25,960 nt of DNA from an uncultured Pseudodesulfovibrio sp. (lineage in GTDB: Bacteria; Desulfobacterota; Desulfovibrionia; Desulfovibrionales; Desulfovibrionaceae), in the NCBI GenBank assembly GCA_947259235.1, contig CAMYLL010000002.1, positions 1 through 25,960 of the forward strand. Direction: 5' to 3'. The notes beneath the pieces were generated by a model. The model did not search any database. It worked only from the letters and a program-made list of their open reading frames with translations, and had not been told where the DNA came from. Below, piece after piece: positions 7,580 through 22,042 of this stretch (position 1 is the stretch's first letter; each line of letters starts with the position of its first letter). The position numbers were made by a program, and so were the translations under genes.

Positions 7580-9772
7580 ATGCCCGACTCCAACCAGAAA
7601 CTTTCCCGCCGCGACTTTTTCAAGGCTTCCGGCCTGATAGCCGCCGGAGCTATGGGCGGCCCCGCCCTGCTGGGCGGCCTGCGCACAGCCCAGGCCGCGC
7701 CCAAGGCTCCGGCCTGGACGTCCGGGTTCTCGGCCTGCGACATGTGCTTCAACAAGTGCGGCCTGATAGCCCGCGTCGAGGACGGCGTGCTCACCAAGCT
7801 CGATCCCAACCCGAAGTTCCTCAAGTCGCGCGGCATGCTGTGCGCCCGGGGCAACGCGGGCATCAGCCATGTCTACGATCCCGACCGGCTCAAGCACCCC
7901 CTGTTGCGCAAGGGCGCGCGCGGGGAGGGCAAGTGGCAGCGCATCCCCTGGGACGAAGCCCTGGACATGGCCGCCGAGAAGATGGCGGCGGTGCGCCGGG
8001 ACTACCTGCCCTGCGGCCACCTCTTTTCCGCCGGGTCCGACCTGCAGTCCCAGTTCGTGGGGCGGCTGGCCGAGGTCTACGGCTCATTCAACATCACGTC
8101 CCACGAGTCCCTGTGCCTGGTTTCCAACAGCCGGGCCTTTCTCGACACCTTCGGCGAGGTCCCCTTTGCCGACGTGCTCCACTCCAAGTACATCATCATG
8201 GCCGGGGCCAACCGCTTCGAGGCGCTGGTCACCCCGGACTCCATGGACCTGATGACCGCCATGCGCGAGCACGGCTGCAAGCTCGTCACCCTGGACCCGC
8301 GCTATACCAAGACCGCGGCCCTCTCCGACGAGTGGTATCCCATCCGGCCCGGCACGGACATGGCCTTCATGCTCGCCCTGGCCCACGTCATCATCGGCGA
8401 GAAGCTCTACGACGCCCAGTGGATCGCGGAAAAGACCTACGGCATCGAACAGCTCACCGAACACGTGAAGCAGTACACCCCCGGGTTTGCCGCCGAGCAG
8501 TGCGGCATCCCGGCCGAGGACATCGCCCGCATCGCCCGCGAGCTGGCCGCGGCCGCGCCCACGTCCATGGTCTATCCCGGCCGCCGCAGTTCCGATTATG
8601 AGGATTCCACCCAGATCCGCCGCTCCTTTGCCATCGTCAACGGCCTGCTCGGCAACTGGGACCGGCCCGGAGGCCTGCTGGCCGCCCGCGCCGTGGGGCT
8701 CAAGGGCGTGCCCTACGACGCGCCCTGGTACGACGAGAACCACGAGGACCGCATCGACGCCGAGACCGTGCCCATGATGTTCGAGCACGAGGGCAGCTTC
8801 ATGGTCACCCGCGACGCCGTGCTGGCGGACGATCCCTACAAGATCCGGGGCTGGTTCATCTACAAGACCAACCCCATGGCCACCGCGCCCAACCGCAAGA
8901 AGACCATCGAGATGATGAACAAGATGGACTTCATCACCGTGGTCGACATCGCCATGTCCGACACGGCGTGGTTCGCGGACCTGGTGCTGCCGTCCCAGAG
9001 CTATCTGGAGCGCACGGACCCGTGCTCCGGGCTCCAGGGGTCGTCGGCCTGCGCCTGCGTGGTCAAGCGCGATCCGCTCATTGAGCCGCTCTACGAGTCG
9101 CGCCCGCTCTTCGACATCGTCAAGGGAATAGCCGGCAGGCTGGACCTGGGCGAATACTTCGACTTCACCATGCAGGAGTTCCGCACCCGCCAGCTGGCCG
9201 GGCTGCCCGGGGCCGAGGAGATACTGGACCGCGACGGCGTCTACTACAACCCGAGCAAGGTCTACGGCATCTACGACGGCAGGGTCTACAAGACGCTGTC
9301 CAAGAAGGTGGAGCTGTACAACCAGCGCTACGAGCAGATGGGCATCGACCCGCTGCCGGTCTATACCCCGCCCGCCAAGGTTCCGGCCAATCAGTTCCGG
9401 CTGGTCATCGGGCGCAACGCCCTGGTCACCCAGGGCTCCACGGCCAACAACGGCCTGCTTCACCAGTTCGTTCCCGAGAACACCCTGTGGCTCAACCCGG
9501 AACCGGCCGAGCGCCTGGGCATCGCCGACGGCGACCTGGTGGAGGTCTCAAGCGCCGTGGGCCGCCAGTCGCTCAAGGCCGAGGTGACGGACAAGATCCG
9601 AAGCGACACGGTCTACATGCTCACCGGCTTCAACTCCCTGTCCACCATGCAGCACCTGGCCCACGGCAACGGCGCCAGCATCGCCGAGGTGCTGGACGGT
9701 AAGTACGACACCGTGACCGGCAACGCTGCCCTGCACCAGACATTCGTGACCGTAACAAGGAAGGTGGCATGA
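7580..9772 (+). CDS. Molybdopterin oxidoreductase catalytic subunit (PsrA/PhsA type)
   Basis: A 730-residue Mo/W-bis-MGD enzyme of the DMSO reductase superfamily, closest in build to polysulfide/thiosulfate reductase catalytic subunits. A Tat signal (SRRDFFK, residues 9-15, then a hydrophobic stretch ending QAA) sends it folded to the periplasm. One 4Fe-4S cluster is bound by C53, C56, C60 and C88 (CDMCFNKC...GMLC). C179, in the segment SHESLC, is the likely metal ligand. Domains for bis-MGD binding follow, ending with a C-terminal molydopterin-binding beta domain from about residue 600. AGGAGG lies 10 nt upstream of ATG 7580. It overlaps the 4Fe-4S subunit by 4 nt. The substrate is not settled by sequence: polysulfide, thiosulfate or tetrathionate are favoured by the rhodanese neighbours, but arsenate or selenium oxyanion reductases are related. 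Confidence 0.9.
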   Translation: MPDSNQKLSRRDFFKASGLIAAGAMGGPALLGGLRTAQAAPKAPAWTSGFSACDMCFNKCGLIARVEDGVLTKLDPNPKFLKSRGMLCARGNAGISHVYDPDRLKHPLLRKGARGEGKWQRIPWDEALDMAAEKMAAVRRDYLPCGHLFSAGSDLQSQFVGRLAEVYGSFNITSHESLCLVSNSRAFLDTFGEVPFADVLHSKYIIMAGANRFEALVTPDSMDLMTAMREHGCKLVTLDPRYTKTAALSDEWYPIRPGTDMAFMLALAHVIIGEKLYDAQWIAEKTYGIEQLTEHVKQYTPGFAAEQCGIPAEDIARIARELAAAAPTSMVYPGRRSSDYEDSTQIRRSFAIVNGLLGNWDRPGGLLAARAVGLKGVPYDAPWYDENHEDRIDAETVPMMFEHEGSFMVTRDAVLADDPYKIRGWFIYKTNPMATAPNRKKTIEMMNKMDFITVVDIAMSDTAWFADLVLPSQSYLERTDPCSGLQGSSACACVVKRDPLIEPLYESRPLFDIVKGIAGRLDLGEYFDFTMQEFRTRQLAGLPGAEEILDRDGVYYNPSKVYGIYDGRVYKTLSKKVELYNQRYEQMGIDPLPVYTPPAKVPANQFRLVIGRNALVTQGSTANNGLLHQFVPENTLWLNPEPAERLGIADGDLVEVSSAVGRQSLKAEVTDKIRSDTVYMLTGFNSLSTMQHLAHGNGASIAEVLDGKYDTVTGNAALHQTFVTVTRKVA

Positions 9773-10509
9773 TGGCACGTCAACTGGCAATGGTCATCGA
9801 CGCGACCAAGTGCATAGACTGCAAGGCCTGCGTGGCCGCCTGCAAGGTGGCCAACAAGGTCCCCGAGGACCAGTGGCGCAACTGGATAAAGCACGAGAAC
9901 GAAGTGCCCCGCGTGGGCGCGGCAGGGGGCGGCAAGGCCCGCTTCCAGCCCGGCGCGTGCATGCACTGCGACAACCCCACCTGCGTGGCCGCCTGCCCGA
10001 CAGGGGCCACGTACAAGGACGCCGAAAACGGCGAGGTGGTTATCAACGAGGGGCTGTGCATCGGCTGCGGCAACTGCATCCCGGCCTGTCCCTACGGCGC
10101 GCGCTTCCGCAACGCGGAAAAGCGCAAGGCGGACAAGTGCAACTACTGTCCCGAGCGCAGGGCCCACGGGCTCGAACCCGCCTGCGTGGACACCTGCCCC
10201 ACCAAGGCCCGGGTCTTCGGCGACATCAACGACCCCCAGAGCGAGGCCGGACGGCTCTATCTGGCGAACAAGGACCGGCTCAAGCGGGTGGCCGCCCTGA
10301 CCGACACCAAGCCGAACATGTATTACCTGGGCGACCTGGGACCGGAGGCATGGGGCGGCGAGGCCGTAGTCCCCGCGTCCATGGTGGCCATGAAGCAGTC
10401 GGCGCCGCTGATCAAGGGTATCGTGGCCCTGTCGGGCCTGGGCGTGCTGGCCATGCTCGGCCGCCAGCTCCTGGCAGGCTCAGACCACAAGGAGGACGGC
10501 GATGCCTAA
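9769..10509 (+). CDS. Four-cluster 4Fe-4S electron transfer subunit (PsrB/PhsB/DmsB type)
   Basis: A 246-residue ferredoxin-like subunit moving electrons between the membrane cytochrome b and the Mo subunit. Four Cys clusters are visible: CIDCKACVAAC, CMHCDNPTCVAAC, CIGCGNCIPAC and CNYC...CVDTC, enough for four 4Fe-4S centres. A hydrophobic segment near the C-terminus (IVALSGLGVLAMLG) may anchor it, which is unusual for plain PsrB and more like HybA/FdnH-type subunits. The start ATG at 9769 overlaps the preceding stop (ATGA); the next ATG at 9772 is equally possible. It carries no Tat signal, so it is presumably co-exported with the catalytic subunit. Confidence 0.92.
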   Translation: MMARQLAMVIDATKCIDCKACVAACKVANKVPEDQWRNWIKHENEVPRVGAAGGGKARFQPGACMHCDNPTCVAACPTGATYKDAENGEVVINEGLCIGCGNCIPACPYGARFRNAEKRKADKCNYCPERRAHGLEPACVDTCPTKARVFGDINDPQSEAGRLYLANKDRLKRVAALTDTKPNMYYLGDLGPEAWGGEAVVPASMVAMKQSAPLIKGIVALSGLGVLAMLGRQLLAGSDHKEDGDA

Positions 10510-11221
10510 GCTGATGCACAAGCGACACGACGCCTCTGACATCTTCATCCACTGGTTCAACGCGGCCTGCTGGCTGCTGCTCCTGCTCACCGGAGTGGGG
10601 CTGATACAAAACCCGGCCATCGACCCGTTCGGGTCGGGCTATCCGGCGGCGCTGCGCTCCCTGGTGGGCGGCGGGACCAACCTGCTCGTCATCCACGAGG
10701 CCATCGGGGTACTGTGGATACTGGGGTTCGTCTTCTACCTGGCGGTCAACTTCAAGGGGGCCCGGTTCTTCCTGGCCGAGGTCTTCACGGTCAGCCCAGG
10801 ACGCGACCTGCCCTGGATGTTCAAGAAGATGGTCCTTATGACCCTGGGGCCCAAGGCGCTCAAGACCATGGGCCAGGACCCGAATCTCCCGGAGCAGGGA
10901 TACTACAACATGGGCCAGAAGGCCTTTGCCCAGGCCAGCATTGTGGGCGGCGTGATCATCGCCGTCACCGGGGTGGTCATGCTCCTGTCGGACCGCACCT
11001 TCGGCGCGGAGTCCACCGTGATGATCGGCTGGGCCGTGGCCCTGCACTTCATCGCCGTCGGGGTCGTCTTCGCCGGGCTGCTGGTCCATATCTACATGGC
11101 CGCCATCTCGCCGGAGGAGAGGCCTGGTTTCAGGTCGATGTTTACCGGCGTGGTCCCGGACGACTATGCCAAGCACCACCACCGGCTGTGGTGGGACAAA
11201 GTCAGAACCGGCGGCAAATGA
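10502..11221 (+). CDS. Cytochrome b subunit (FdnI/PhsC-like, di-haem quinone-linked)
   Basis: A 239-residue membrane protein of the Ni/Fe-hydrogenase/formate dehydrogenase gamma (cytochrome b561-like) type. Four hydrophobic helices are visible, with likely haem ligands in helix 1 (H17, FIHWFN), helix 2 (H65, VIHEA) and the last helix (ALHF...LLVHIYM). It would exchange electrons with menaquinol and pass them to the 4Fe-4S subunit. It overlaps the preceding gene by 8 nt, a sign of coupled translation. This is not the NrfD-type anchor found in classical PsrABC, so the enzyme is closer to PhsABC or formate dehydrogenase-like architecture in its membrane module. Confidence 0.9.
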   Translation: MPKLMHKRHDASDIFIHWFNAACWLLLLLTGVGLIQNPAIDPFGSGYPAALRSLVGGGTNLLVIHEAIGVLWILGFVFYLAVNFKGARFFLAEVFTVSPGRDLPWMFKKMVLMTLGPKALKTMGQDPNLPEQGYYNMGQKAFAQASIVGGVIIAVTGVVMLLSDRTFGAESTVMIGWAVALHFIAVGVVFAGLLVHIYMAAISPEERPGFRSMFTGVVPDDYAKHHHRLWWDKVRTGGK

Positions 11222-11249
11222 TCCCGCCGGAACAGATACAGTAAAAAAG

Positions 11250-11282
11250 CCCGGGCCGCCCGCGAGGGGCTGGCGGTCCGGG
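11250..11282 (+). repeat. Intercistronic stem-loop before the triple rhodanese
   Basis: CCCGGGCCGCC (11250-11260) pairs with GGCGGTCCGGG (11272-11282) over 11 bp with one G-T wobble around an 11-nt loop. No T-run follows. It lies between the cytochrome b stop and the rhodanese ribosome binding site, so it could be a stabiliser or partial attenuator inside the operon. Confidence 0.6.
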
Positions 11283-11312
11283 ATCACGAATCACCTATGA
11301 AGGGAGTATACA

Positions 11313-12413
11313 ATGCGTAAAAGAATCATGTGGATAACCATGCTGGTGGTGTTCGCCCTGACGGCGGCAACCGCTCCGGCCCTGGCGAACGAGGACGCAC
11401 AGCCCGCGTTCAAGGAATTCCATTCCATCGTGGATTACGGCTTCGTGGCCAAGTATGCCAAGATGCCCAAGCCCAAGGACGTGATGATCATCGACTCGCG
11501 TCCCTACAAGCCCAAGTTCATCGAGGGCTACATCCCCACGGCCGTCTCCATCCCGGCCAGCCAGTTCGAGAAGATGGCGGGCGAGCTGCCCAAGAACAAG
11601 GACGCCCTGCTCATCTTCTATTGCGGCGGCCTGAGCTGTCCGCTCTCCCACAAGTCCGCCTTCATGGCCGAGGCCATGGGCTACACCAACGTCCGCGTCT
11701 ACGCCGCCGGATTCCCGGACTGGAAGAAGAAGGCGCCCTATTACTCCGTGGGCGTGGAAGCGGTGAAGGACATGATGACCAAGGGCGAGAACTACATGCT
11801 CATCGACGCCCGTCCGCTCAAGAAGTACCTTGAGGGCGCCATCCCGTCCGCCATCGCCATCCCGGAGCGGGATTTCGCGGCCAAGCGCGGCATGCTGCCC
11901 ATCGACAAGGCCGAGACCACCCTGGTCTACTACTGCGGCGGCTTCGACTGCCCGCTCTCCCACAAGTCCGCCGTCAAGGCGCGCTACCTGGGCTACAAGA
12001 AGGTCGTGGTGGCCGAGGCCGGATACCCCGGCTGGACGGCGCTCTACGGAGCCTCCGGCGCGATGGAAGTCAAGGCAGGCGAGGCCGAGGGTGCCATCGA
12101 CACCGACCAGTTCCTGGCCATCCTCAAGGACAAGCCCGAGTCCATCACCCTCATCGATGTGCGTGACCCCGGCGAGTACGCCGCCGGCCACTTCCCGTCC
12201 GCCGTCAACATGCCCGTGGACATGGTCGAGAAGAAGGCGGGCGACATTGCCACGGACAAGCCCATCGTCTTCTACTGTTCCACCGGCGCGCGGGCGGGCG
12301 AGGCCTACTATCTGTTCATGGACCTTCGCCCCGAGGTCAAGGACGTCTTCTACCTCGAATCCACAAACAAGTTCGGCAGCGACAACAGCTACGAGGTCCA
12401 TCCCAACAAGTAG
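11313..12413 (+). CDS. Secreted triple-rhodanese sulfurtransferase
   Basis: A 366-residue periplasmic protein: signal peptide (cleavage near ALA-NE) followed by three rhodanese domains. Domain 1 has the loop FYCGGLSCPLSHKSA (C104, C109), domain 2 YYCGGFDCPLSHKSA (C208, C213), and domain 3 the standard FYCSTGARAG (C322, C-x4-R). Each domain also keeps its DSRP/DARP/DVRD-type motif. The two C-x4-C loops depart from the usual C-x4-R active site and suggest thiol/disulfide or persulfide chemistry on paired cysteines; domain 3 looks like an ordinary sulfurtransferase site. GGGAG lies 6-7 nt upstream of ATG 11313. Its place directly downstream of a PsrA/PhsA-like reductase suggests that it carries sulfane sulfur for that enzyme (inference). 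Confidence 0.9.
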   Translation: MRKRIMWITMLVVFALTAATAPALANEDAQPAFKEFHSIVDYGFVAKYAKMPKPKDVMIIDSRPYKPKFIEGYIPTAVSIPASQFEKMAGELPKNKDALLIFYCGGLSCPLSHKSAFMAEAMGYTNVRVYAAGFPDWKKKAPYYSVGVEAVKDMMTKGENYMLIDARPLKKYLEGAIPSAIAIPERDFAAKRGMLPIDKAETTLVYYCGGFDCPLSHKSAVKARYLGYKKVVVAEAGYPGWTALYGASGAMEVKAGEAEGAIDTDQFLAILKDKPESITLIDVRDPGEYAAGHFPSAVNMPVDMVEKKAGDIATDKPIVFYCSTGARAGEAYYLFMDLRPEVKDVFYLESTNKFGSDNSYEVHPNK

Positions 12414-12429
12414 CGATGGACACCCCTTT

Positions 12430-12475
12430 GCGGGGACGGGAGGGCAAACCATTCACCTCCCCCTTCCGTCCCCGC
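12430..12475 (+). repeat. Intercistronic stem-loop before the Sec-rhodanese gene
   Basis: GCGGGGACGG (12430-12439) and CCGTCCCCGC (12466-12475) make a perfect 10-bp stem, and GAGG/CCTC inside it can extend the fold. There is no T-run. It ends 20 nt before the GAGGAG ribosome binding site of the next gene. It is the third such element in this operon. Confidence 0.6.
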
Positions 12476-12505
12476 GCAGATACCCCGAAAGGGCGAGGAG
12501 CACTG

Positions 12506-13513
12506 ATGCTGAGAAATTTATCATTCATGGCATGGCTGTTCCTCGCCCTGTTCCTGTCTGCACCGGCGGCGGACGCGGCCGATGACGCCCTGTGGCTGCC
12601 TGCGGCCCGGGACGACAGCGAACGCGACGGCTACAAGCTGGTGGACACACCCGAGCTGCTCGCGCTGCTGAACTCCGACACGCCGCCTCTGATCATCGAC
12701 GTGCGGGCTGACTACGAATACGAGGCCGCCCACGTGCCCAGTGCCGAGAACCTGGAATTCGACCTGGGCGACCGGTCGAAGCTCTCCGACGCCAAGCGCG
12801 CGGCCTTCAAGGCGCTGGCTGGGGATGATATGGCGCGGCCCATGATCCTCTACTGCCGCAGCTTCAGGTGACTGCGCAGCGGCATCGCGGCGCGCTGGGC
12901 AGTGCGCATGGGGTATACGAACGTGTTCAGGTATCCGGCCGGGTTCCACGGCTGGAAGGAGGCGCACCCGGAGCGCGTCGTCGGGAGCGCGCAGGCACAG
13001 CGGGCGCTGACCCGGGGAGACGCGTTCCCCGACTGTCGGCTGGCCATCCTCAGCGGCGAGGGCGACCGGGAGTATCTGGGCCTGCCCGAGGACGCCCGCT
13101 GGCTCGCCCTCTCGGACCTCAACGCCCGCTTCGCGCTGATCCAGCTCTACAACACCATGTGCAACGAGTGCGTCAGCGAAACCAAGCGGCTCAGCCAGCT
13201 CTACAGACAGATAGAGGACGACCCGGTGCTGGCGGGCACGCTCAAGATAATCGGAGTGGGCATCTATGACACGAACCGGGCCGTTGTGAAATTTCGGAAG
13301 CATTACGACGTGTTGTATCCGCTCTTTTCCGACAGCCACGGCGAGATTTTCGAATGTCTGGGCCAGGCCCAGGTTCCGCTGGCCTATCTGCTGCGCGCCA
13401 AGGGCGACGGCACGTGGATCATAGAGATGATCAAGCGGGGATACTTTGAGCCGGACGAGGCGTTCCTCAACTCCCTGCGGCAGGCGGTCATCCGCTACGA
13501 GGGTATCGACTAG
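12506..13513 (+). CDS. Predicted selenoprotein: secreted rhodanese-redoxin fusion with in-frame TGA (Sec122)
   Basis: One continuous frame of 335 codons if TGA 12869-12871 is read through. It begins with a signal peptide (ATG 12506, GAGGAG 5 nt upstream; cleavage near ADA-AD). The rhodanese domain (~45-145) has DVRADYEYEAAHVPSA, the loop YC117RSFR-U122-LRSGIAA and MGYTNVF. A thioredoxin/TlpA-like domain follows (~190-335) with the redox motif C219-N-E-C222. The TGA occupies the position of the second Cys in the C-x4-C loops of both upstream rhodanese domains, and sequence on both sides is conserved and free of other lesions, so Sec insertion is favoured over a nonsense mutation. A GC-rich hairpin starts right after the TGA. 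Without Sec insertion, the product would be a 121-residue truncated rhodanese. Its stop overlaps the convergent TorD gene. Confidence 0.8.
12869..12902 (+). promoter_or_regulatory. Candidate UGA(Sec) codon with SECIS-like hairpin
   Basis: Directly after TGA (12869-12871), CTGCGCAGCG (12872-12881) pairs with CGCTGGGCAG (12893-12902) at 9 of 10 positions, with one G-G mismatch. The 11-nt loop GCATCGCGGCG starts with G and can tighten to a 6-nt loop. Bacterial SECIS elements sit immediately downstream of UGA with a G-rich apical loop, which fits. GC-rich DNA folds easily, so the hairpin alone is modest evidence. Confidence 0.5.
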
Positions 13514-14163
13514 CGGGGCGCGAGCCCGGGCCGGACATCAAGGGAACGGAGCAGGGCGGTCAGGAACTCGGCGGCCAGGCCAAAGACGGGATGCGGCTGC
13601 GCGGCAGCGAGGCAGGCCTGAAAACGGGCCACCCAGGGAAGCATGACCTCCCGGGCGAAGTCCAGACCGGCGGCCTCGGACTCTCTGTCGCCGCCCGCCC
13701 AGCCCGCGGCCAGCAGATGGTAGAGGTATTCGAGTTCAACGGCCAGATGGTCGGGCGGCTCGTTTCCGTCCACGGCCGTCTCCAGCCCGGCCTGGGCCAG
13801 ACGGCGGCCCATGGCCACGGCGGCGGCCCCCATGACCCGGGGCTTGCCGTCCAGGTGGCACGATTCGTAGGGCGGGGCCGATACTCCGCCTCCGGCGGAG
13901 ACGAACAGGCGGACATATTCCGCCTCCAGCTCGTCGAGGGCTGCAGAATCACCCGGAGCCGGTCCTAATTCTTGCAGCTTTTTGAGGATGTTCGTAAGAT
14001 GCGCAAAGCGGGAGGGGGCACGGGCGGTCAATTCGGGCAGCCCGGCCCGGAAGATGGCCGTCCAGCCATCGGGCGCGGGTCCCCGGAAGAGGGCCACGGC
14101 GAGCTCGATGGAACTGAGCACGAAGATTCGTTGATCACGCTCGGTGATGGCGGTGTCCGGCAC
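13510..14163 (-). CDS. TorD/DmsD-family chaperone for the Mo-oxidoreductase
   Basis: A 217-residue all-helical protein with the family signature YVRLF (83-87) followed by PPYESCH (97-103). TorD-family proteins bind the Tat signal and core of a specific Mo enzyme, hold it for cofactor insertion and prevent early export. The client is probably the catalytic subunit at 7580, the only Tat/Mo enzyme in the window (inference). It starts at GTG 14163, with AGGGGA about 8 nt upstream. It is convergent with the rhodanese-redoxin gene: the two stop codons overlap by two bases (13511-13512), so the transcripts must overlap. It is divergent from the CsoR-like gene, sharing a 117-bp control region. Confidence 0.85.
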   Translation of the reverse strand: MPDTAITERDQRIFVLSSIELAVALFRGPAPDGWTAIFRAGLPELTARAPSRFAHLTNILKKLQELGPAPGDSAALDELEAEYVRLFVSAGGGVSAPPYESCHLDGKPRVMGAAAVAMGRRLAQAGLETAVDGNEPPDHLAVELEYLYHLLAAGWAGGDRESEAAGLDFAREVMLPWVARFQACLAAAQPHPVFGLAAEFLTALLRSLDVRPGLAPR

Positions 14164-15758: not shown

Positions 15759-19322
<3,564 letters not shown>

Positions 19323-19438: not shown

Positions 19439-22042
19439 ATGCCTAATACGCCAGAAATTCTCGACACTCCCGCTTCCCCTCCAGCTCCTGCTGAAGAGTC
19501 CGGCCCCGTTGCTGGCTCCGGCCCTGACGGACAGGAACAGCCGCAGCCCGCGTCTGCCGCGCCGCAAGCGCCAGACCCCGCGCCCGCCGAATCCGGCGGT
19601 GAGGAACTTTTCGGCGGGGGGTCGGTCTTCGAGCCGGGCGGCGGCGTTTTCTCGCCATCGGGCATGGAATCCCCCTGGGCACAGCTCTTCGGGCAGGGGC
19701 TGCCGGAGGACGGCGACCTCGCAGGCTCCTTCATGGACGGCGCAGGCGAGATGCCGGGGCCTCTCTTTGGCGGGACGGCTCCCGGCTTTTTCTCCGGCTG
19801 GACAGGGGGGGGCGCTCCCGGATCGCTCCCGGACATCCAGCCGCAGTTCGGCGACCCGGGCCGCAATGACCCTCCCGGTCCCCATCCGGCGGCCAACCAT
19901 GACCCTGACGACGAGCCCGGCAGGCAAAACAGCGGACCCGCCGCGCCCCACGATCCGCTCTTTTACAAACAATGGTACATCACCAACACCCAGGGCGGCG
20001 TGGACCTCAACGTGCTCACCGCCTGGGACGACTACACGGGCGAGGGCATCAAGGTCGCCATCTGCGACAACGGCGTGGACTACAACCACCCGGACCTCTC
20101 CCCCAACTATCTCCGGGGCCAAGGCTACAACGAAACCCTGGGCGTCAACGACGGCTACCCTGATCCGAACATGAACCACGGAACCGCCGTGGCCGGGTTC
20201 GTGGCCGCGGCCAAGAACGGCTACGGCATCCAGGGCATCGCCTACGACGCGACCATGGCCTCCTTTGTGGACGGTGATGCGGACGGCGCGCTGGAGGCTG
20301 TCCTGCTGCGCCAGACCACCTTCGACATCTCGCAAAACAGCTGGACCCTTTCCCCCTTTGCCGATGCGACCACCATCACCGGCGCCGTGGAGACCCTGGC
20401 CCGCGACGGGCGCGGCGGGCTTGGAACCGTGGCGGTCTTCGCCGGGTCCAACGAGCGTGCAAGCGGGATAATGTCCACTTACTACAACACCAACGACAGC
20501 CCCTTCGCGCTGTCCGTCGGCGCGGTGGACAGCGCGGGAAAATATGCCGACTTCAGCTGCGCCGGGCCCAACCTGCTGGTCACCGCGCCCGGCGAATCGG
20601 TCTTCACCACCGACCGCACGCCCCCGGCCGGGGACGATCCGAACTCCTATTTCCAGACCGGCGACGGCACGTCCTATTCGTCGCCCATGGTCAGCGGCGT
20701 CATCGCCCTCATGCTCGAAGCGAACCCGAACCTGGGCTACCGCGACGTGCAGACCATCCTCGCCTCCACCGCAGTGCGCGTCTCGACCATGACTTCCGAC
20801 CCCGCCGGGCCGTGGGACTGGCAGATCAACAGCGCCTCCAACTGGAACGGCGGCGGCATGCACGCCAGCCACGACTACGGCTACGGCCTGACGGACGCCA
20901 CCGCTGCCGTGCGTCTGGCCGAGTCATGGGACACCGGCCAGCACACCCATGCCAACCTCGACACCCAAACGGTCTCCACCATCCAGAACCTGACCATCCC
21001 CGACAACACCGGCGCGAGCCTCGACACCACCGTCTCCGTGGCCACGGACATCGTCGTGCAGCAGGCCGTGGTCTCCATCGAGATCGTCCATGCCCGGTTC
21101 GACGACCTGGAGATATCCCTGACCTCGCCCACCGGAACCTACAGCGTGCTCATGTATCATCCCAACCTGACAGGCCTTGCCCAGGAGATGGACATCACCC
21201 TGGCGGAATACCAGGCCGGGGCCACCCACACCTTCGGCGTGACGAACACATGGTCCTTCATGACCTCCATGTCCTTTGGCGAGAACGGCCAGGGCGACTG
21301 GCTGCTCTCCATTTCGGACACGGTCAGCGGCGACGAGGGCCAGCTCTCGTCATGGACGCTGACCCTCTACGGTGACGATGTCAGCAACGACGACCTCTAC
21401 GTGTTCACCAACGAATATGCCGAGATGGCGGCGGCGGACCCCGCCCGGGCGACCATCGACGACGCCGCGGGAACCGACACCATCAACGCCTCGGCCGTGA
21501 CCTCGGACTGCGTGGTCGACCTGACCCCGGGCGCAACCGGCACGGTGGACGGCGCCGCACTGACCATCGGTGCGGGGACCATCATCGAAAACGTCCATAC
21601 CGGGGACGGCAACGACACCGTCATCGGCAACGACGCGGCCAACAACCTCTTCGGCTGGCGGGGCGTCGATTCCCTCTCGGGCGGCATCGGCAACGACCTG
21701 CTCTCCGGCGGCGAGGGCAGCGACACCCTCACCGGCGGCGCGGGCAGCGACATCTTCTACTACGGCTCGGCCGACGAGGGCGGCGATCTGGTCACGGACT
21801 TCAACCAGGCGGACGACGACTTTCACTTCGGCTACGATTCCTTTGGCCAGTCCGCCACGGGCGCGCTCGCCGCAAACCATTTCTTCGCCTCTGCGAACTC
21901 CGTGAACGTCACCGACGCCTGTTTCTATTTCGAATCCGACACCCTCTGGTACGACGCCGACGGCACGGGAACGGAAGCCGCCACCGCCATAGCCCAGGTG
22001 ACGGGGGACGCCGTGCAGGCCAACGACGTCGTTTTCGTCTAG
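19439..22042 (+). CDS. Secreted subtilisin-like protease (S8) with P/convertase domain and RTX repeats
   Basis: An 867-residue extracellular protease. Residues 1-~170 are a low-complexity Pro/Gly/Ala/Glu-rich leader without signal peptide. The S8 domain (~175-490) has the triad D210 (ICDNGVDYNHPD), H247 (MNHGTAVAG) and S412 (GTSYSSPM), plus the SQNSW segment that may supply the oxyanion Asn. A proprotein-convertase P-like domain (~510-645) follows, as in kexins. Next come RTX nonapeptides (GGIGNDLLS, GGEGSDTLT, GGAGSDIFY; from ~748), then a C-terminal segment. RTX repeats bind calcium and mark type I secretion substrates, fitting the lack of a signal peptide. No type I exporter lies in the window. 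No clear Shine-Dalgarno precedes ATG 19439, so the start is less certain, but most of the leader is in frame and open. Confidence 0.9.
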   Translation: MPNTPEILDTPASPPAPAEESGPVAGSGPDGQEQPQPASAAPQAPDPAPAESGGEELFGGGSVFEPGGGVFSPSGMESPWAQLFGQGLPEDGDLAGSFMDGAGEMPGPLFGGTAPGFFSGWTGGGAPGSLPDIQPQFGDPGRNDPPGPHPAANHDPDDEPGRQNSGPAAPHDPLFYKQWYITNTQGGVDLNVLTAWDDYTGEGIKVAICDNGVDYNHPDLSPNYLRGQGYNETLGVNDGYPDPNMNHGTAVAGFVAAAKNGYGIQGIAYDATMASFVDGDADGALEAVLLRQTTFDISQNSWTLSPFADATTITGAVETLARDGRGGLGTVAVFAGSNERASGIMSTYYNTNDSPFALSVGAVDSAGKYADFSCAGPNLLVTAPGESVFTTDRTPPAGDDPNSYFQTGDGTSYSSPMVSGVIALMLEANPNLGYRDVQTILASTAVRVSTMTSDPAGPWDWQINSASNWNGGGMHASHDYGYGLTDATAAVRLAESWDTGQHTHANLDTQTVSTIQNLTIPDNTGASLDTTVSVATDIVVQQAVVSIEIVHARFDDLEISLTSPTGTYSVLMYHPNLTGLAQEMDITLAEYQAGATHTFGVTNTWSFMTSMSFGENGQGDWLLSISDTVSGDEGQLSSWTLTLYGDDVSNDDLYVFTNEYAEMAAADPARATIDDAAGTDTINASAVTSDCVVDLTPGATGTVDGAALTIGAGTIIENVHTGDGNDTVIGNDAANNLFGWRGVDSLSGGIGNDLLSGGEGSDTLTGGAGSDIFYYGSADEGGDLVTDFNQADDDFHFGYDSFGQSATGALAANHFFASANSVNVTDACFYFESDTLWYDADGTGTEAATAIAQVTGDAVQANDVVFV

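Follow-up and report, generated by a model that had tools for sequence, protein, structure and literature searches.

Does the in-frame TGA that interrupts a rhodanese-like gene of an uncultured Pseudodesulfovibrio encode selenocysteine (Sec), and what would a Sec-containing rhodanese do beside a molybdenum (Mo) reductase? The gene lies in the 25,960-nt stretch of DNA that was analysed as a whole (hereafter the window), and an earlier note, made from the letters of this stretch, had described it as an apparently new selenoprotein in which a rhodanese is fused to a redoxin. We address the question from the architecture of the gene, its relatives, the Sec machinery of the genome, the selection acting downstream of the TGA, and the neighboring genes.

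The Reading Frame and Its Two Domains

With TGA read as Sec (U), the frame encodes 335 residues with a single recoded codon, U122, and a ribosome-binding-like GAGGAG is located just 5' of its ATG; the read-through translation thus bears out the claim that one TGA splits a continuous frame (table 1). The rhodanese loop of the protein reads C117-R-S-F-R-U122-L-R-S125. The TGA had been placed opposite the second loop Cys of domains 1 and 2 of the triple rhodanese encoded upstream (C104-GGLS-C109 and C208-GGFD-C213), and this alignment holds because that protein has cysteines at positions 104, 109, 208, and 213; its fifth is at 322.

The N-terminal signal-like helix is followed by a rhodanese domain (residues ~44–158), which contains the catalytic Cys and is matched by PF00581 (58.7 bits, cut-off 22.2), and by a ResA/TlpA-like domain of the thioredoxin fold (~168–332), which contains a CxxC motif and is matched by PF00578 (AhpC-TSA; 34.0 bits, cut-off 26). 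An AlphaFold2 model obtained with 25 sequences (mean pLDDT 87) shows the N-terminal helix and two confident domains, the arrangement of which is uncertain because the pTM is only 0.56. The best PDB matches of the C-terminal domain are ResA structures, and CcmG structures are matched too. The fusion of a rhodanese to a CxxC redoxin, as first described, is therefore confirmed by Pfam domains, structure matches, and the C219-x2-C222 motif. Secretion had also been proposed; it agrees with the signal-like helix of the predicted model, and we infer from the hydrophobic start that the fusion protein is probably secreted.

Both C219 and C222 are kept in 36 of the 37 aligned fusion proteins. The exception, L055, has lost the CxxC and kept the Sec, which counts against the functional explanation that we favor below. 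In the examined loci of families f2 and f4, as well as in four genomes of family f1 (G065, G071, G075, and G077), the match consists of a rhodanese domain alone. A profile of the C-terminal domain detected no ResA-like companion gene (E < 0.01) beside single-domain versions in nine regions (L160–L168), the output being restricted to these nine and three fusion regions. In the mechanism proposed below, the single-domain rhodaneses must use an outside reductant.

The codon directly 5' of the TGA (12866–12868) shows a bias of its own. Among the 29 Sec genes of family f1, it is AGG in 20 of the 27 Arg codons found at this place, and AGG makes up 78 of the 714 Arg codons of these genes as a whole. 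The AGG codon makes CAGGTGACTG, which contains the Shine-Dalgarno-like AGGTGA.

Table 1. Features of the window discussed in the text, in order of position
Feature	Position	Strand	Basis
Molybdopterin reductase, PhsA-like, 4Fe-4S domain, SRRDFFK start	7580..9772	+	Profile matches
Iron-sulfur electron-transfer subunit	9769..10509	+	Profile matches
Cytochrome b membrane subunit (PF01292)	10502..11221	+	Profile matches
Triple rhodanese, signal-like N-terminus; C-x4-C loops in domains 1 and 2, single Cys in domain 3	11313..12413	+	
Sec-rhodanese/ResA-like fusion gene	12506..13513	+	TGA-as-U translation, Pfam, AlphaFold2, structure matches
TGC, Cys117, catalytic Cys position of the rhodanese loop	12854..12856	+	Translation, alignment
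In-frame TGA, putative Sec122, second position of the C-x4-U loop	12869..12871	+	Translation, alignment
Candidate SECIS-like hairpin: 7 bp, GGGC loop, stem from 18 nt past the TGA	12890..12907	+	f1 alignment, folding
C219-N-E-C222, redox motif of the ResA-like domain	13160..13171	+	Translation, alignment
TorD/NarJ-type chaperone gene, convergent with the Sec gene and sharing its last 4 bases	13510..14163	-	Profile matches

Cys and Sec Alternate at the Second Loop Position

The read-through protein was searched against 148 relatives and gave matches at E ≤ 0.001 in 111 of them, many being weak, partial, or limited to one domain. The genus is represented by 36 genomes, including the window's own. 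By a combination of search and locus alignment, we identified a full-length gene with exactly one TGA in 24 of these, in all cases in the same column, and TGC (Cys) in this column in five (G008, G013, G015, G020, and G031); in the other seven, the search with the read-through protein found no full-length match to the fusion. Eleven of the 23 other genus genomes with a TGA in this column are listed as single-contig assemblies, and the same-column TGA is also present in other families. The earlier note had considered a random nonsense mutation unlikely, and chance is indeed excluded by the recurrence of one TGA in the same column in 24 of 36 genomes.

At a larger scale, we searched 395 genomes of the phylum with a profile and obtained matches at E ≤ 1e−15 in 56. 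The best match was read in 48 loci from these 56 genomes, 46 of which were kept after two repeats (L088 and L128) had been dropped. To these we added 62 loci from the first search, which gives a set of 108 rhodanese domains, from which we also excluded L031 (almost identical to L030), L084 (once more the window gene), L048 and L049 (whose places are identical to those of L032 and L031), and L050 (a match to the C-terminal domain only). The loop pair is Cys-Sec in 62 of the 108 domains, Cys-Cys in 33, and Sec-Sec in 13, with the provisos that these are strong matches and not all rhodaneses, weaker matches to ordinary rhodaneses falling outside the count, and that the pattern applied to the 46 rows expects Cys or Sec at both loop places (no row failed it). 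The alternation of Cys and Sec for which the earlier note had suggested looking is thus found both within the genus and among the 108 domains, which have only Cys/Sec pairs. A quick tree of these domains implies at least 10 changes of loop state, with few firm branches (13 of 105 starred); the starred branches alone force three changes for C-U and three for C-C. Cys117 is kept in all 55 aligned close homologs, and a Ser is found at the place of S125 (UxxS) in 51 of the 55.

Other loop types were encountered on the way. The window's own genome encodes a further C-x4-C rhodanese (L132, contig C120; YCGYVKCGRS), which groups with the phylum-wide Cys-Cys rows. Rhodanese domains with UxxxxU, that is, Sec at both positions, are present in seven relatives (L077–L083, from G096, G116, G104, G066, G107, G077, and G113, respectively).

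Selenocysteine Machinery

The window's own genome contains matches to selA (609.5 bits), selD (315.5 bits; L010, contig C52), and tRNA-Sec (77.4 bits). The genes named for this check, selA, selB, selC, and selD, are thus accounted for except that selB is not whole: the assembly, which comprises 474 contigs and is 82.8% complete, contains only a C-terminal piece of it, located where contig C207 ends. A selB match above the cut-off is present in 34 of the 36 genus genomes, and the two that lack it, the window's own and G029, are both fragmented and about 82% complete. The selD gene of the window's genome itself has an in-frame TGA, with Sec at residue 17 of the translated stretch.

We found selA in 128 of the 148 relatives; the Cys forms are therefore no sign of lost Sec machinery. 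In particular, the data do not support machinery loss as the reason why Cys forms exist in the genus, as selA and selB matches are present in all five genomes concerned.

Selection and RNA Structure Downstream of the TGA

In eight comparisons that involve the window gene and include one Cys form, pN/pS after the TGA is 0.22–0.39; it is 0.38–0.71 before the TGA in comparisons with the same gene and 0.04–0.17 after the TGA in three closer pairs, synonymous sites being near saturation in several comparisons. These ratios indicate that the codons 3' of the TGA are under purifying selection. Because the column alternates between Cys and Sec, the machinery is encoded, and the gene is conserved after the TGA, the reading of codon 122 as Sec, and of the gene as a selenoprotein, is strongly supported.

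The evidence for a SECIS element in the window gene is mixed, and we regard the hairpin listed in table 1 as a candidate. Its distance from the TGA and the G in its loop fit the rule for bacterial SECIS elements. The hairpin was tested on 29 aligned f1 sequences, 25 of which are distinct. In the distinct sequences, 90.3% of the hairpin cells are paired (17 of 175 unpaired), compared with 2.9–69.7% when the partner strand is slid. Two base pairs show changes on both sides, and likewise two in the control in which the partner strand is slid by +2; the covariation score of the hairpin was reached by 4 of 500 shuffles, which ignore relatedness. The Ala codon that closes the loop is GCA in 21 of the 26 Ala codons found there, as against 122 of 973 gene-wide in family f1. 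On the other hand, the hairpin is absent from the minimum-energy fold of 47-nt and 60-nt stretches, in which another fold is preferred, and single sequences give weak z-scores (−0.78 for the hairpin of the window and −0.61 for 60 nt). By eye, at least one hairpin position is unpaired in 8 of the 29 f1 rows (L020, L027, L028, L032, L053, L054, L060, and L070); L054 folds into a shifted hairpin.

When the amino acids are held fixed, the RNA near the TGA is more stable than its synonymous variants in the genus, in other f1 sequences, in f4, and in f5 (lowest means over the windows of this test −1.4, −1.7, −2.1, and −2.1, respectively), and less so in f2 (−0.6), which shows little excess structure, and in the six Cys forms (−0.5), values that are suggestive only because they are minima over many windows in related rows. 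A search of all 25,960 nt of the window with Rfam at the gathering threshold gave no matches. The Cys form (TGC) of a close relative, L024 (G015), retains the hairpin letters after the codon, which are perhaps a relic SECIS following a recent change from Sec to Cys.

A Conserved Mo-Reductase Neighborhood

The gene adjoins those of a PhsA-like reductase, an iron-sulfur subunit, a cytochrome b, and the triple rhodanese (table 1), so that the Mo-reductase operon context initially described stands. The SRRDFFK start of the reductase is a Tat-like motif. We compared 40 regions chosen because they hold the Sec-rhodanese gene or its Cys form. All four partner genes accompany it in 39 of them, the region of the exception (L147) ending at a contig end. 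The window's gene order is kept in 38, L165 having the triple rhodanese after the chaperone gene, and a TorD-type gene is detected at E ≤ 1e−8 in 33.

The stretch that runs from the reductase to the TorD-type chaperone gene (7580–14163) resembles in make-up the MOLY cluster, a proposed marker of sulfur disproportionation (PMC12998232). Further downstream, the window encodes a large hybrid sensor kinase that combines an ABC-type substrate-binding part with PAS, GAF, HisKA, HATPase, and receiver domains (15759–19322), and a subtilase-family protease with a P-domain and RTX-type calcium repeats (19439–22042).

A Putative Persulfide Reductase

The explanation that we favor, and consider fairly probable as a whole, is that the gene encodes a genuine selenoprotein that is probably secreted and acts as a persulfide reductase, or sulfur-release partner, linked to the Mo reductase. 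Its steps can be proposed by analogy with rhodanese and ResA chemistry. UGA codon 122 would be decoded as Sec by the SelA/SelB/SelC/SelD system of the genome. Cys117 would accept sulfane sulfur, with thiosulfate, polysulfide, or the triple rhodanese as donor, to give Cys-S-SH; Sec122, five residues further in the loop, would then attack Cys117, so that sulfide leaves and a Cys-S-Se-Sec bridge is formed. This selenenylsulfide would be reduced by C219-x2-C222 of the ResA-like domain or, in single-domain versions, by an outside redoxin. The fusion protein would thus need no further component to serve the Mo reductase as its persulfide reductase or sulfur-release partner.

More tentatively, and with some doubt on our side, the scheme may be extended to the whole family. 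Sec at the second loop position would turn a rhodanese sulfur carrier into a self-resolving persulfide reductase, the selenenylsulfide of which is recycled by the fused ResA-like domain; C-C, C-U, and U-U loops would be graded versions serving PhsA-like reductases, and TsoB a double-Sec, membrane-coupled relative.

Other roles can be envisaged for a selenoprotein of this type. The conservation of the catalytic rhodanese Cys (55 of 55 rows) and of the gene order (3' of the reductase and the triple rhodanese, as in the window, in 38 of the 40 regions chosen for the gene) points to sulfur transfer. It makes it unlikely that the role of Sec122 lies in oxidant resistance or in general thiol-disulfide exchange, with an only regulatory link to the Mo reductase, even though the C-terminal domain is ResA/TlpA-like and, according to a recent inventory, many selenoproteins of prokaryotes have homologs among the thiol oxidoreductases (PMC13188914). 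Sulfur transfer, in turn, could mean that the protein carries sulfur to the Mo reductase, loading or feeding it, a role with which the conservation of the operon would also agree. The title of a 2012 paper by Aussignargues, cited in PMC12998232, reportedly presents a rhodanese as the sulfur supplier of sulfur-energy enzymes. We nevertheless give the carrier role a rather small chance, as the fused ResA-like CxxC and the second nucleophile of the loop suggest reduction over passive delivery. Finally, that the TGA is a real stop, as genetic code table 11 reads it, and the gene a pseudogene, a sequencing error for TGC/TGT in a fragmented assembly (474 contigs), or the source of a truncated 121-aa protein, is highly improbable given that 23 other genus genomes (11 listed as single-contig) and other families have one TGA in this very column, that the column is otherwise occupied by Cys in the compared rows, and that purifying selection persists past it. 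The recurrence and the selection are the grounds on which pseudogene and sequencing error were rejected.

If the persulfide reductase mechanism is true, selenium supply would be tied to the respiration of sulfur compounds in sulfate reducers. The protein would also provide a defined enzyme in which to measure the value of Sec over Cys in persulfide handling, with its natural Cys-Cys, Cys-Sec, and Sec-Sec relatives as a comparison set.

Relation to Known Sec-Rhodaneses and Reductases

A 2026 inventory counts 119 selenoprotein families and subfamilies, including five Sec-rhodanese forms with the motifs UxxS, UxxG, CxU, UxxG, and UxxxxU, the fifth of which is TsoB (PMC13188914). Sec-rhodaneses or Sec-sulfurtransferases are also listed for GOS data, 2016 bacterial genomes, and a marine deltaproteobacterium, mostly with no motif that could be compared. 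The literature consulted further comprises PMC1088965, PMC2398784, PMC9312934, PMC8318568, PMC12013277, PMC1794560, PMC5877670, PMC5029168, and PMC9751629. We did not uphold the idea of an entirely new Sec site, because TsoB has Sec at this position as well and the site of form 1 (UxxS) may coincide with it. The claim of a new selenoprotein can thus be retained in part: Sec-rhodaneses with UxxS (form 1) and UxxxxU (TsoB) were already catalogued, whereas the fusion and its operon context, neither of which was found in the open-licence literature searched, are apparently new, as is the series of Cys-Cys, Cys-Sec, and Sec-Sec loops. No NCBIfam model scores above its cut-off with the window protein, and automatic annotation may therefore well cut such genes at the TGA.

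Like form 1 (WP_010941598.1; Table 1 of PMC13188914), the window protein has a single Sec in its rhodanese domain, and its U122-L-R-S125 fits UxxS, a motif also present in 7 of the 11 distant C-x4-U loci L114–L124 (all but L115, L116, L121, and L122). The Sec site of form 1 may thus be the same as residue 122; the inventory table names no fusion for this form. Matches to NF040886 occur in 39 of the 395 phylum genomes and are spread over many families, so that they do not single out Geobacter genomes for a comparison with form 1. Form 3, rhodanese_LYCAU (NF041203), is likewise a Sec-rhodanese that retains a Cys nearby, but its spacing is CxU instead of CxxxxU, and the window protein scores 20.1 bits against a cut-off of 115.

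The C-terminal domain shares its fold and CxxC with ResA/TlpA/CcmG oxidoreductases; it differs in being fused behind a rhodanese and scores 36.7 with the ResA NCBIfam model, the cut-off of which is 170. The PhsABC thiosulfate reductase operon, in which PhsC is a cytochrome b, resembles the window in that PhsA-like, iron-sulfur, and cytochrome b subunits are present in the latter. To these the window adds genes for the triple rhodanese, the Sec-rhodanese, and the TorD-type chaperone, and its molybdopterin reductase remains below the cut-off of the PhsA equivalog NF012032 (537.7 bits vs. 694).

The best NCBIfam match of the window protein is the TsoB model NF045694 (residues 32–154), which all 25 scanned fusion proteins match at E ≤ 0.001. 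With 88.8 bits against a cut-off of 805, and with C-x4-U instead of UxxxxU, the window protein lies outside TsoB proper; relatives above this cut-off are L077 (971.5 bits), the one of L077–L083 that was scored, and L131 (G422), a natural Cys-Cys form (913.3 bits). TsoB and the window protein nevertheless share the spacing of the rhodanese loop, Sec at its second position, and the joining of a rhodanese to a disulfide-reducing module. They differ in the first loop position, which is Sec in TsoB and Cys in the window protein, and in the part joined to the rhodanese, which is DsbD-like in the former and ResA-like in the latter.
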